Position numbers and translations under genes: made by a program. This document shows positions 12,628-27,407 of a stretch of 32,245 nucleotides of DNA, piece after piece. Each line of letters begins with the position of its first letter. The first letter of the stretch is position 1. The stretch is from Candidatus Uhrbacteria bacterium. Lineage in GTDB: Bacteria; Patescibacteriota; Patescibacteriia; UBA9934. Under the pieces are notes generated by a model. The model saw only the letters and a program-made list of their open reading frames with translations. It did not search any database and had not been told where the DNA came from. The stretch spans positions 1-32,245 of the forward strand of contig CALRGY010000014.1 in assembly GCA_943358395.1 (NCBI GenBank), in the 5' to 3' direction.

Positions 12628-12736
12628 AGGTTTTATTGACGCGATAATGTTGCGATACGTATACTCTTCTTGTGCTGGTGCAGTATATCACAAGGGAGAT
12701 ATATATTTTGCGACACATGTTGGTATTGGTGAGTGA

Positions 12737-12917
12737 TAGGACTTTCTCATTTTAGACCAGTTTCGATAAAGATAGAGGAAGTCATCTGAGACGTACGTAA
12801 TGGTACGTTCACCCCGCTTCTCGCGAGAAGCGGGGTGAACGATTTTCCGATGATCTGAGTCACGTCGTTCGTGAACGACGTGATGAATCGAAAATGGGCA
12901 AAAGGAGGAAAGAATAA
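12737..12917. repeat. TIR/hairpin repeat element copy A
   Basis: Starts TAGGACTTTCTCATTTTAGACCAGTTTCG; degenerate right end CGAAAATGGGCAAAAGGAGGAAAGAATA; internal perfect 36-bp palindrome. Confidence 0.8.
12806..12841. repeat. Perfect 36-bp palindrome CGTTCACCCCGCTTCTCG|CGAGAAGCGGGGTGAACG
   Basis: 18-bp arms, no spacer, no mismatch. Confidence 0.95.
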
Positions 12918-12928
12918 GTGATCATTTT

Positions 12929-13005
12929 GACCTCGTAGCTCAACTGGATAGAGCAGGTCCGTCCTAAGGACAAGGTTGCAGGTTCAACTCCCGCCGAGGT
13001 CACCA
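12929..13005 (+). tRNA. tRNA-Arg(CCT) with encoded CCA
   Basis: GACCTCGTAGCTCAACTGGATAGAGCAGGTCCGTCCTAAGGACAAGGTTGCAGGTTCAACTCCCGCCGAGGTCACCA. Confidence 0.93.
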
Positions 13006-13007
13006 GA

Positions 13008-13027
13008 ATTGTTTCACGTGAAACAAT
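13008..13027. promoter_or_regulatory. parS: parS-like site 1
   Basis: ATTGTTTCACGTGAAACAAT contains the known parS consensus TGTTTCACGTGAAACA. Confidence 0.9.
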
Positions 13028-13074
13028 CGTTCGTGTTTAAGATAGTTTGTCTCATTTTTTTAGGTTAGAAATAG

Positions 13075-13199
13075 TAGGACTTTCTCATTTGAGGCTATTT
13101 TCGGTGAACCAGGAGGAAATGTCGTGAGACGTACTTAACGGTACGTTGAACGACTTTCCGACGCAGTGAGTCGAAAAGAGACCAAATGGGAAAGTCCTA
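13075..13199. repeat. TIR/hairpin repeat element copy B
   Basis: TAGGACTTTCTCATTTG...CAAATGGGAAAGTCCTA with inner hairpin ACGTAC-TTAACG-GTACGT. Confidence 0.85.
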
Positions 13200-13202
13200 A
13201 CT

Positions 13203-13278
13203 GGGCCTGTAGCTCAGTTGGTAGAGCGCTGCATTCGCATTGCAGAGGTCAGCGGTTCGAATCCGCTCAGGTCCACCA
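13203..13278 (+). tRNA. tRNA-Ala(CGC) with encoded CCA
   Basis: GGGCCTGTAGCTCAGTTGGTAGAGCGCTGCATTCGCATTGCAG...CAGGTCCACCA; G3:U70 pair present. Confidence 0.95.
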
Positions 13279-13306
13279 AAAAACACCGAATTATCGGTGT
13301 TTTTTA
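13278..13306 (+). terminator. Terminator after tRNA-Ala
   Basis: AAAAAACACCGA-ATTA-TCGGTGTTTTTT. Confidence 0.8.
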
Positions 13307-13307
13307 A

Positions 13308-13434
13308 TAGGACTTCCTCATTTTGCCCATTTTCGGCTTACTTCCTCGACGTGATCGACGGTGTACCAAGAAGTACACCTTGACGATCCCGTCATCGTTG
13401 CGCACCGAAACTGGTCGAAAATGAGAAAGTCCTA
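13308..13434. repeat. TIR/hairpin repeat element copy C, inverted relative to A
   Basis: TAGGACTTCCTCATTTTGCCCATTTTCGG...CCGAAACTGGTCGAAAATGAGAAAGTCCTA; inner hairpin GGTGTAC-CAAGAA-GTACACC. Confidence 0.85.
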
Positions 13435-13567: not shown

Positions 13568-13587
13568 ATTGTTTCACGTGAAACAAT
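13568..13587. promoter_or_regulatory. parS: parS-like site 2
   Basis: ATTGTTTCACGTGAAACAAT, identical to site 1. Confidence 0.9.
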
Positions 13588-13948: not shown

Positions 13949-13968
13949 ATTGTTTCACGTGAAACAAT
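13949..13968. promoter_or_regulatory. parS: parS-like site 3
   Basis: ATTGTTTCACGTGAAACAAT, identical to site 1. Confidence 0.9.
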
Positions 13969-15092: not shown

Positions 15093-15147
15093 TGGTGTTT
15101 TTTTAACGATCGACGAAGATTTTACAAATAGAAGATTTCATTACTCC

Positions 15148-16164
15148 TTAGTCTCCAGCTTTTAACGCAACGAGTTGTTGAATTATTTCGTCAGGTTTTC
15201 GGTAGCCAATGGCTGCCCGTGGTCGCCCATTCAGTTGACGTTGCACACGTTTGATCTCTTTCGTTGAAACGGTGCGGAAGTCGGTGCCCTTTGGAAAATA
15301 CTGACGGATAAGTCCGTTGGTATTTTCGTTTGTGCCACGCTCCCATGGACTTCCCGGATGAGCGAAATATACCTTCATTCCGGTCGCTACCGTAAACTTT
15401 TTATGGTCGCTCATTTCTTTCCCCTGGTCGTACGTGAGGGACTTCGTGAATTCTTTTGGTAACGTACGCATTGCTTTGACGTATGCCTTACGCACTGATA
15501 CTGCATCTTTGGCTTTGAGTGGCACCATGATGGTGTATCTCGTCGTCCGCTCGACAAGTGTTCCCATTGCGGACTGCTTGTATTTTCCCATGATGAGGTC
15601 GCCCTCCCAATGTCCTGGCACTGTGCGCTCTGCAACCTCTGCCGGGCGCTCCTCAATGGATAGCATATCTGCGATCTTTCCTCGCATTTCGGTCGCTTTA
15701 CTCATCTTCGTTTTTCGTTTTCTTCGGTACTTCCGTTCCTGACGGAGACCTTTAATGAGCTCTGCTTTGAGGGAACCTCGTGGCAACACATAAATGTATT
15801 GGTAGATGGTTTCTGGAGACAGATGCATATCTTGCCTTCCAGGATACGTGCTCCGGAGTGTTTTGGCGATCTGATTTGGCGACCAACGGTTCATGAGACC
15901 TGAGATGACCTCAGCGAGGAGTGCCGGATTCTGCGTCAATTTTCGTCGACCAAACTTCCGAGATGCGGCTTTACGCTGTGCCCGACGCGTCGCCAAATTC
16001 GCTCGATATCCGGAGATGCCGCCATTCTTGCTAACCTCCTGAGAAATGGTGCTCGTTGATCTGCCGATTCTGCCGGCAATGGCGGTCATGGATTCGCCGG
16101 AGGCTAATCCTCGACTTATTTCTTCTCGGTCAATATTTGTTAGCCGAACGTAGGATTCTGGCAT
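15148..16164 (-). CDS. IS30-family transposase
   Basis: IS30 HTH (MTAIAGRIGRSTSTISQEVSKNG), DDE core (GHWEGDLIMGK; LTYDQGKEM; HPGSPWERGTNENTNGLIRQYFPKGTDF). Confidence 0.95.
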   Translation of the reverse strand: MPESYVRLTNIDREEISRGLASGESMTAIAGRIGRSTSTISQEVSKNGGISGYRANLATRRAQRKAASRKFGRRKLTQNPALLAEVISGLMNRWSPNQIAKTLRSTYPGRQDMHLSPETIYQYIYVLPRGSLKAELIKGLRQERKYRRKRKTKMSKATEMRGKIADMLSIEERPAEVAERTVPGHWEGDLIMGKYKQSAMGTLVERTTRYTIMVPLKAKDAVSVRKAYVKAMRTLPKEFTKSLTYDQGKEMSDHKKFTVATGMKVYFAHPGSPWERGTNENTNGLIRQYFPKGTDFRTVSTKEIKRVQRQLNGRPRAAIGYRKPDEIIQQLVALKAGD

Positions 16165-16202
16165 ACGAGTAGGAGTCTACTCGTTGCGTTAGATTCTGGA
16201 GA
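15152..16202 (-). mobile_element. IS30-family insertion sequence (approximate ends)
   Basis: Imperfect TIRs TCTCCAG(N4)TAACGCAACGAGT at 15152-15175 and, inverted, at 16179-16202, bracketing the transposase. Confidence 0.75.
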
Positions 16203-16253
16203 GGAAGTCATATTTCGAAAACATAATCTGATCATTTCGGGTACAATGTTCTC

Positions 16254-22200: not shown

Positions 22201-23505
22201 TCGTATGACTTTGCGGAAATGTTCCCGTCTGCCGACGTATTGCTGCCTGGTGAAATTGTCGTGTTTGGCGATGCGAGCGAACATGTGAAGCGATCGTTGG
22301 GCGAGCCGTACAGTCGCACCATTGCCGGAATTGTTTCTACGCGCCCCGGATTTTTGGCAGGTGAGAATCGTGCGGATCATTATCCTATTGCGCTTGCTGG
22401 GCGTGTGCCAACATTGGTCTCCACGGAAAACGGCGCAATCAACATCGGCGATCCACTGACAACATCAACACATCCCGGCTATGCCATGAAGGCAACGGAA
22501 CCTGGACCGATTGTGGGCTATGCCGCACAAGCATTCGAAGGATTGATGGGAACGGTGATCGTCTATGTGAATGTTTCATATTACGCCGGTGCACCGGTGA
22601 AGCAGGGTGCGGGTGCAGAAAACACCGTTTCCCATCTTTCTGCAGATATTCAAGCGTTTGATACCACGGGTGTGCTGAACTTTAACGGTGGTCAGCTTCT
22701 CGCGATTGGTTCCATGGCAGGAATCGATGGCGTGTGGCGTTTAGAGAATGATGGCGATTTCATTACGTCTGGTCGGCTCATCGAATTAGTGCGGTCGGTT
22801 GAGGGTACCGATGTTGAAACGTATGTTGCGGCAACATTGCAGAAAACGGTGCAGCTTTCCGGTACGGTTGTACTCAACAATGGTCGCGCCGAGGTGACGT
22901 TTGCAGACATCGATGCAACATTTACCAGTATCATCGATACAGCCCCAACCTATCGCGCACTTATCACACCGTACGGAGCAACCGGTGCACTCTTCGTCAC
23001 CGATCGCACGGTGAACGGATTCGCTATCGTTGAATCTGGTGCAGCGTCTTCCGGCGTTTCTGTGGATTGGTTCGTGATTGCGACGCGGAGGGATTACGCG
23101 GAGGTGAATGCGGTTCCGGTTGAAGTGCCGTTGGTGAGCAATTCGGTCGAAACCCCTTCGGAGTTCTCGACCCCCTCCGACTCCCCCTTGGCAGGGGGAG
23201 AGGTCGCGACGGATGAGGTCACTCCGTCATCGGATCCGGTGAGTGAATCGATTTCCGATCCTGCACCGGTCTCTGATCCTGAACCGATTTCCGAACCTGC
23301 ATCATCGGATTCTGCTTCTTCGACTTCAGCTCCCTCCGACTCCTCGTCCCTTTCTCACTCCCCCATAAATGGGGGAGAGGTCGCGAGCAATGAAAGCGCT
23401 CCGTCATCGGATTCGGTGAGCGTTGATGCTGCGCCTGCGCCGTCCGCCGACTCAGCCCCATCCGGATCTTCCGATGCTCCTTCGAGTGAGTCAGTGTCAT
23501 CCTGA
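19243..23505 (+). CDS. Large tail-fibre/surface-like protein with two peptidase G2-like (IMCp-like) modules and a Ser/Pro-rich C-terminus
   Basis: PRIVMYQGRLLNSNGVPVSD...; ADFAEYFPTKDAALTDEQLV...GVISTNPAFIG and YDFAEMFPSADVLLPGEIV...GIVSTRPGFLAG; ATGA overlap with the upstream gene. Confidence 0.75.
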   Translation: MRKEEGRKGYGISLARRFFASVIFACVLVGTGYTGLIQVRAAATPPRIVMYQGRLLNSNGVPVSDTTASISFALYDASSGGTCLWSNNSATCASVAARTVTLTSGLFSEALGDTAAATPYAAIAATVFADNASVYLEVIVNGETLTPRKAMLAAPYAMNADALDGYTTTLAGATSAMVPVFTANGNLVITGSPQSTATTDAVLLVNPDTAVTATNEKLLSLAVSGTAKFTLDAEGDGTFAGSIGVNGGTIASSIALAITSGGDLSLNPGGSGLVSITTGDDFTVGAATLVAPFSVDVSLATIRFGSGSSADPILNFYASDSSTSAQIAYGLTDTFAVTGGNWSLTGLGTLPTTSSGSSVSSLTTTTLSGTSSNNLAALTMYGSSSSMTYSAIEGSGTTSHQVNAGQNSLTISGATSVLTYGNAVKGTLTNTATNASLIESGGYLSGVTGVATHNASLTTLSDIRGVYGEVAAANGTVTNAYAVSGQFSVTSGSITNAYAVYGKGTTVGTNRYGVYGEASGGTNNYGGYFTGGAVQIDADTSADIATIALTAGELYVAGDLESRGSTLLGDATSSSPTFTFSSAKTSGDLGSFVFDGMQSGNGFTVSRANAGGTDVTGTIFRVLQNDVGAGSTATAASITQLGAGSAIGLLITQATTSAHSGASTGANALVIDTQENGSSDDAIILRSDSNADGTGLDMEFRVTTAGDAYADGAFTGGGADFAEYFPTKDAALTDEQLVCQDYAVAKSVKRCEAGNTQIVGVISTNPAFIGNNIGDGTEDLRGNAKYRLVGLTGQVDTKVSTSDGAIAVGDPISASSTMAGYGAKAHGPVRIVGFALQALSGGVGTIRVLVSPQWYGGDVLTATGGATQVAGSFAIAATTLATASSVTVDSGTLMLRGSAWSGNAAETIGMQLKTAVSAVDDYRLSVMNTAGTEVASVGNSGDFAIAGRLYPSDRGATQRTKYLYYDGSVGSGGDMMRTNAAGWAAGSYDFAEMFPSADVLLPGEIVVFGDASEHVKRSLGEPYSRTIAGIVSTRPGFLAGENRADHYPIALAGRVPTLVSTENGAINIGDPLTTSTHPGYAMKATEPGPIVGYAAQAFEGLMGTVIVYVNVSYYAGAPVKQGAGAENTVSHLSADIQAFDTTGVLNFNGGQLLAIGSMAGIDGVWRLENDGDFITSGRLIELVRSVEGTDVETYVAATLQKTVQLSGTVVLNNGRAEVTFADIDATFTSIIDTAPTYRALITPYGATGALFVTDRTVNGFAIVESGAASSGVSVDWFVIATRRDYAEVNAVPVEVPLVSNSVETPSEFSTPSDSPLAGGEVATDEVTPSSDPVSESISDPAPVSDPEPISEPASSDSASSTSAPSDSSSLSHSPINGGEVASNESAPSSDSVSVDAAPAPSADSAPSGSSDAPSSESVSS
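23181..23200. repeat. R2 palindrome CTCCCCCTTGGCAGGGGGAG within CDS
   Basis: 7-bp perfect arms; flanks match other R2 copies (CCCCTCCGA...AGGTCGCGA). Confidence 0.85.
23358..23377. repeat. R2 palindrome CTCCCCCATAAATGGGGGAG within CDS
   Basis: Same repeat family, flanked by AGGTCGCGA. Confidence 0.85.
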
Positions 23506-23560
23506 GGCTTTGCCGACCTGTCCCCACGAAGCTTTAGCGAAGTGGGAAAGATCTCTCGTT
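23496..23560. repeat. R3 half-element GTCATCCTGAGGCTTTGCCGACCTGTCCCCACGAAGC...
   Basis: Near-identical to the left half of 27289-27407. Confidence 0.85.
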
Positions 23561-23575
23561 GATTAAGAACTTTCT

Positions 23576-27158: not shown

Positions 27159-27288
27159 TTTGACCTCTGAAAGTGAATTTTTTGCGAACGTTTCTCCCTT
27201 CCGGGAGGGGTAAAAATAGCGAATATTTGCGGAAAAGTCAATGGAAATGTAAAATGGGGGCGATGAATATTGGTGGGATGCGGTATCT

Positions 27289-27407
27289 GTCATCCTGAGG
27301 CTTCGCCGACCTGTCCCCACGAAGCTTTAGCGGAGTGGGAAGGATCTTTCGTAGACTTGTTGGTTCTAGCAAATCTGTGGGAGATCCTTCACTACGTTCA
27401 GGATGAC
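27289..27407. repeat. R3 full inverted-repeat element GTCATCCTGA...TCAGGATGAC
   Basis: Terminal 10-bp inverted repeats, inner AAGGATCTTTC / GAGATCCTTC arms. Confidence 0.9.

Follow-up and report, generated by a model that had tools for sequence, protein, structure and literature searches.

What are the three short repeats that stand interleaved with two tRNA genes and a parS palindrome in the window, that is, in the whole analysed stretch of 32,245 nt from a 912-kb genome of Candidatus Uhrbacteria (Patescibacteria; below, the home genome), and what keeps them there? With a probability that we put at roughly 45%, they belong to an ERIC-like structured mobile element whose copies next to stable-RNA genes are retained as hairpins for the punctuation or processing of transcripts. 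The layout proposed in an earlier sequence-only reading (repeats A, B and C with their hairpins, two tRNAs, parS and a terminator) was borne out at every position (Table 1). The termini, which that reading held to be shared by all three repeats, need a correction for A, whose right end has decayed to AAAAGGAGGAAAGAATA, and the 180-nt length of A results from two extra hairpins in the loops of a 125-nt unit. C is indeed inverted relative to A: it lies on the minus strand, so that B and C both aim their right ends at tRNA-Ala. None of the elements encodes a protein, as far as we could see, and all three fold far better than their dinucleotide shuffles (z of -6.9 for A, -8.7 for B and -8.9 for C).

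Table 1. Features of the locus, in window coordinates
Feature	Position	Strand	Remark
Target duplication of element A, left copy	12732..12736		AGTGA, 5 bp; from sequence
Element A	12737..12916	+	125-nt unit made longer by two hairpin insertions; decayed right end; 12 nt before tRNA-Arg(CCT), sense
Extra hairpin within element A	about 12806..12841	+	CCCCGC..GCGGGG type, shared with other copies
Second extra hairpin within element A	about 12860..12883	+	TCACGTCGTTCGTGAACGACGTGA
Target duplication of element A, right copy	12917..12921		AGTGA, 5 bp; from sequence
tRNA-Arg(CCT)	12929..13005	+	
parS palindrome	13008..13027		ATTGTTTCACGTGAAACAAT; neighbour, outside the element
Element B	13075..13199	+	canonical unit of 125 nt; 3 nt separate its right end from tRNA-Ala(CGC), sense
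Apical core of element B	13126..13149	+	GA, CGTAC (13130-13134), 6-nt loop, GTACG (13141-13145), GA
tRNA-Ala(CGC)	13203..13278	+	between the inward-pointing right ends of elements B and C
Intrinsic terminator of tRNA-Ala	13278..13305	+	inverted repeat with T tract
Element C	13308..13434	-	127 nt, antisense to tRNA-Ala; right end toward the tRNA 3' end, beyond the terminator

Several other features of the window should be recorded in their own right. The palindrome of Table 1 fits the known parS consensus; two further parS sites stand at 13568-13587 and about 13949-13968, and this cluster, many more such palindromes being present in the congener G001, suggests an origin-proximal ParB region. 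An IS30-like element with an HTH_38 and rve transposase occupies 15147-16207, its terminal repeats (15147-15175 and 16179-16207) being imperfect and unlike the TAGGACTT ends discussed below. A second repeat, GTCATCCTGAGGCTTCGCCGACCTGTCCCCACGAAGCTTTAGCG.., is found twice (23495-23562 and 27288-27355) and sits also inside one hairpin-element copy (L116, about 2387-2520).

A, B and C belong to a real repeat family, as had been supposed. Searching the home genome at the DNA level turned up dozens of hairpin-element copies, and a covariance model built from 24 of them, the kind of check that the sequence-only reading had proposed, found about 118 distinct elements after removal of opposite-strand duplicates, spread over 27 of the 28 contigs. 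Close sequence analysis covered the stretches around elements and tRNA genes. The model also matched in relatives: 34 genomes of a relatives set of 40 (home genome counted) gave matches, as did, under stricter filters, 19 of 240 genomes of a class-wide sample, other families among them; the named records carrying the element pattern are largely Candidatus Uhrbacteria. A second subtype, with CTAGGAG..CGACAACG loops, flanks tRNAs on both sides (L074, L080, L175, L176, L180, L181); the model used gave it poor scores, and the true element counts are probably higher. The impression of a new family also stands, as no Rfam family covers the elements: at the gathering score the hits in the searched loci were to tRNA, tmRNA and rRNA only (at the window locus, to the tRNAs only), and a relaxed threshold gave no credible match to the elements. 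Viral contigs (searched with two patterns) and phage and plasmid collections held no element match, and no description was found in the literature searched, so the hairpin family seems to be undescribed.

The lineage with TAGGACTT ends is mobile. Among the 118 own copies 13 have an exact 5-bp flank match (0.3 expected; at most 2 in 300 shuffles), flanks match at this length and at no other, and almost all copies with such duplications are TAGGACTT-ended. Relatives repeat the picture, with exact 5-bp duplications around 8 of 23 TAGGACTT-ended copies (0.42 expected; at most 4 in 1000 shuffles), two of the 8 coming from another family of the class. An empty site was found as well: the copy at C23:1185, beside an NYN-domain gene, is absent at the same place in the congeners G002 and G004. 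Their sequence is TATTTA-TCTGCGGC, and that of the home genome is ATTTA-element-ACTTA-CTGCGGC. The elements thus display several generic features of MITEs (short, non-coding, with inverted ends in the mobile lineage, target duplication, and filled and empty sites), and the earlier description of them as MITE-like proved apt. The NYN-domain gene itself (LabA/DUF88-like, judged by eye; L014, 534-1573) lies between two inward-facing copies, both absent in congeners; gene and copies were considered as a meaningful unit and rejected as such, since the two copies are each bordered by a full or near duplication of their own and so are separate insertions.

Insertion and loss are seen inside the elements too. 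Extra hairpins, flanked by the short repeats TGA, CAAG or TGAG, occupy recurrent loop positions in diverged backbones, and short forms of 59-68 nt lack the interior, the apical core included, and still have exact 5-bp duplications. An identical 32-nt palindrome, GTATGAAGTAAGCGCTTCGCTTTACTTCATAC, recurs with CAAG or TGAG repeats in the same loop of about ten strongly diverged backbones (L027, L030, L131, L133-L135 and others of 152-180 nt) and is possibly a still smaller mobile palindrome. As for an autonomous parent, no matching end pairs at transposon distance were seen in five genomes, nor any longer unit with such ends, and no transposase with matching ends was seen among their end pairs or at solitary ends; the solitary ends in C6 and C18 turned out to be leftovers, which either adjoin an FtsW/RodA-like gene or are split by another repeat. 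The Y1_Tnp domain (PF01797) gave 0 matches in the home genome (G000), the richest in elements.

Copies near other tRNAs, which the sequence-only reading had advised to look for, are numerous and strictly oriented. In the home genome an element lies within 60 nt of 24 of the 47 tRNAs, and a pairing search added one more tRNA-adjacent element on each side. Within 10 nt of these 47 tRNAs there are 22 right ends and 0 left ends, 0.06 of each being expected if placement is uniform over the whole genome; confining the elements to intergenic DNA would raise this expectation roughly tenfold, by our estimate, and leaves the conclusion unchanged. The independent genome G004 shows 20 right ends against 1 left end (0.04 expected), the element with this single left end having its right end toward a different tRNA, and the same placement is found in distant genera. 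Most tRNA-adjacent elements stand 5' of the gene in sense, and seven tRNAs have an antisense one on their 3' side, at most 60 nt away; on this side the far end of several elements reads, on the tRNA strand, as CGGTGTTTTG or similar, which is terminator-like. Other stable RNAs are bordered likewise: one element of the home genome abuts the tmRNA 3' end and another the 23S rRNA 3' end, and in G039 an element precedes the 5' end of 23S rRNA by 16 nt. Dispersed copies have no orientation bias relative to neighbouring protein genes, which rules against a cis-acting mRNA element for most of them and leaves these without an evident role of this kind.

A promoter-like site is present just upstream of 22 of 27 bare tRNAs; of 20 element-bearing tRNAs only 2 have such a site within the element next to them, and to the left of 5'-side elements promoters show no more than a weak enrichment (4 of 19). 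Judged from these sequence signals, it would be logical to suggest that an element may be cotranscribed with its tRNA as a part of the precursor. An own promoter for every copy was also considered and rejected, the early excess of -10-like boxes being lost in a two-box test.

The tRNA-Arg(CCT)/tRNA-Ala(CGC) pair lies beside rmuC, an arrangement conserved in many relatives, and here turnover of the elements goes together with constrained evolution in place. Elements stand at all four tRNA ends in G003; in G004 the model finds three, and a fourth is recognisable by eye; G002 has one, with a plain terminator in place of the 3'-Ala element of G003 and G004; G001 has zero elements at this locus and many parS sites. 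Since elements come and go in this way at orthologous tRNAs, any function must be dispensable. At the 3' end of tRNA-Ala, G003 and G004 have orthologous elements, between which compensatory changes are seen, ATGGC/GCCAT to GCGGC/GCCGC and CAAA/TTTG to CGAA/TTCG.

Position and orientation might also come from the act of insertion, with no host function at all, if the enzyme that moves the elements is directed to stable-RNA gene ends and invariably sets the right end toward the gene; Tn7-like elements, which target their sites, offer an analogy. Such targeting would agree with the strict orientation, with gaps of 0-8 nt on either side of the gene, with tRNA gene ends that are near-symmetric owing to the acceptor stem, with the turnover at orthologous tRNAs, and with A itself, which lies next to tRNA-Arg and has an exact 5-bp duplication. 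However, nearly all other tRNA-adjacent copies are devoid of duplications and of TAGGACTT ends, the duplication-flanked copies lie mostly in ordinary intergenic DNA, and compensatory change in orthologous tRNA-adjacent copies is unexpected of neutral relics. A wider form, with any hairpin or stem base as the target, failed, as right ends of dispersed copies are not enriched there. We regard targeted insertion as unlikely.

The structure of the elements bears on the remaining alternatives. A unit is mostly 121-129 nt long (near 125), also across the class, and folds end to end as one long hairpin. In the 24 own copies 97.4% of cells are paired, against 34-50% in slid-structure controls, 16 of 47 pairs have changed on both sides, and the covariation was reached by 0 of 500 shuffles; 29 diverse, mostly tRNA-adjacent copies from many genomes gave a covariation score of 0.607 against 0.182 when shuffled, and in their basal stem all 15 pairs have changed on both sides with 88% still paired. 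Covariation in both sets upholds the earlier suggestion that structure is selected. The fixed part is the apex, GA-CGTAC-loop-GTACG-GA, which is also the part best conserved across the order (13126-13149 in element B). Among 68 equal-length own copies there are 323 G-T cells against 58 A-C, and the tandem G-A positions are nearly invariant; in 119 of 120 copies, tRNA-antisense ones included, the given strand has the more stable fold (in the largest class, on average about -63 kcal/mol against -49 for the other strand). One strand is selected, polarity alone being common to RNA and single-stranded DNA, and we infer RNA as the selected form. The tandem G-A loops might have arisen as footprints of nested hairpin insertions, since direct TGA repeats flank the inserted hairpins; that the loops persist across the order speaks for selection and is compatible with such an origin.

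This selection could serve the movement of the element only, the structure acting as single-stranded DNA (or RNA) whose apical core is recognised and which is cut at a fixed distance, to no benefit of the host. A length fixed at 121-129 nt across the class, a free basal sequence under a conserved form, and polarity in all copies regardless of location are what such a mechanism would produce. Against it, copies without mobile ends still evolve in place by compensation, the 59-68 nt forms that have no apical core possess exact 5-bp duplications (though the deletion may postdate insertion), and a Y1 transposase gene was not found in the element-richest genome; we hold it for somewhat more doubtful than targeted insertion. 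It is very improbable that the elements are ordinary MITEs with unselected structure, their pairing being left from one ancestral inverted repeat or from replication-based correction of a quasi-palindrome: most published bacterial MITEs do form long stem-loops as transcripts (PMC2229807), yet arm correction would wipe out G-A loops and G-T pairs, which both persist in fixed places on one strand, and the tRNA placement rule stays unexplained. The chromosome-organising, parS-linked repeat that the sequence-only reading also envisaged has the three parS sites of the window locus in its favour and is refuted as a general rule by about 118 copies over 27 of the 28 contigs. Against it stand also G001, rich in parS and element-free at the locus, and the element-bearing tRNAs examined, most of which have no parS noted alongside; the link is local, and this explanation has practically no chance.

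The explanation that we prefer, an ERIC-like mobile element whose copies at stable-RNA genes are kept as hairpins, would operate as follows. The family consists of short non-coding MITE-like units; those of the TAGGACTT-ended lineage duplicate 5 bp of target and would be moved in trans by a putative enzyme. On one strand each unit specifies a long hairpin, about 125 nt in length, that contains tandem G-A internal loops and has GA-CGUAC-loop-GUACG-GA as its conserved apical core. Where a unit adjoins the mature end of a tRNA, tmRNA or 23S rRNA gene, selection would retain it: 5' of a tRNA the hairpin lies in the sense strand and is probably a part of the precursor, and 3' of it in antisense, where its outer stem often reads like a terminator of the gene itself. 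A transcript entering a stable-RNA gene from either side would then meet the element in its well-folding orientation, and for this reason the likeliest role would be that of a punctuation or processing hairpin, the apical core being bound and the transcript cut or ended at the hairpin base. A processing factor is our guess. Against a processing role it should be said that 3'-side copies have their good fold on the tRNA-antisense strand, and a precursor role alone leaves this unexplained.

One may even suggest, as a bold and rather improbable extension, that Patescibacteria possess a class-wide, structure-based system for labelling the mature termini of stable-RNA genes, in which a host factor would bind the GA-CGUAC..GUACG-GA apex, measure a fixed helix length and cut or end transcripts at the base, and the mobile lineage of the hairpin would supply new copies. 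In any case, for structured mobile repeats, as far as we found, no strictly oriented location almost in contact with tRNA, tmRNA and rRNA ends has been reported; such repeats are known from a few cultivated bacteria, and their spread over a whole candidate-phyla class is, to the same extent, new. The family offers a concrete case of how a selfish repeat joins stable-RNA transcription units and how reduced genomes mature their tRNAs.

Among known systems, REP/REPIN sequences with their RAYT (Y1 transposase) are likewise dispersed intergenic hairpins; they differ in the five-bp target duplications seen here, and identity with REP/RAYT was rejected, as Y1_Tnp was not matched in the genome with about 118 elements. 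The family appears to work rather like the structured bacterial MITEs reviewed in PMC2229807 and PMC10969869, ERIC above all, a likeness drawn from published descriptions. YPAL/RU-2 of Yersinia, which inserts near dyad symmetry, makes duplications of 3 to 26 bp and is without terminal inverted repeats (PMC2229807), is also a structured mobile repeat with target duplications, whereas the present elements have a fixed 5 bp and TAGGACTT ends. Correia/NEMIS of Neisseria, whose transcripts fold and are cut by RNase III at the terminal repeats (PMC2229807, PMC10969869), are small elements with terminal inverted repeats in short and long forms, as here, but no sequence relation to them was seen, and they have another target rule and phylum. 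ERIC/IRU of enterobacteria, 127 bp long, in 30 to several hundred copies per genome and with an orientation-dependent effect on transcripts in Yersinia (PMC2229807, PMC10969869), resembles our family in length, in its intergenic MITE-like dispersal and in the long stem-loop with end-to-end pairing; the present family is set apart from it by the TAGGACTT ends, the 5-bp duplications, the apical GA-CGTAC..GTACG-GA core, another phylum, and orientation-locked placement at stable-RNA genes.
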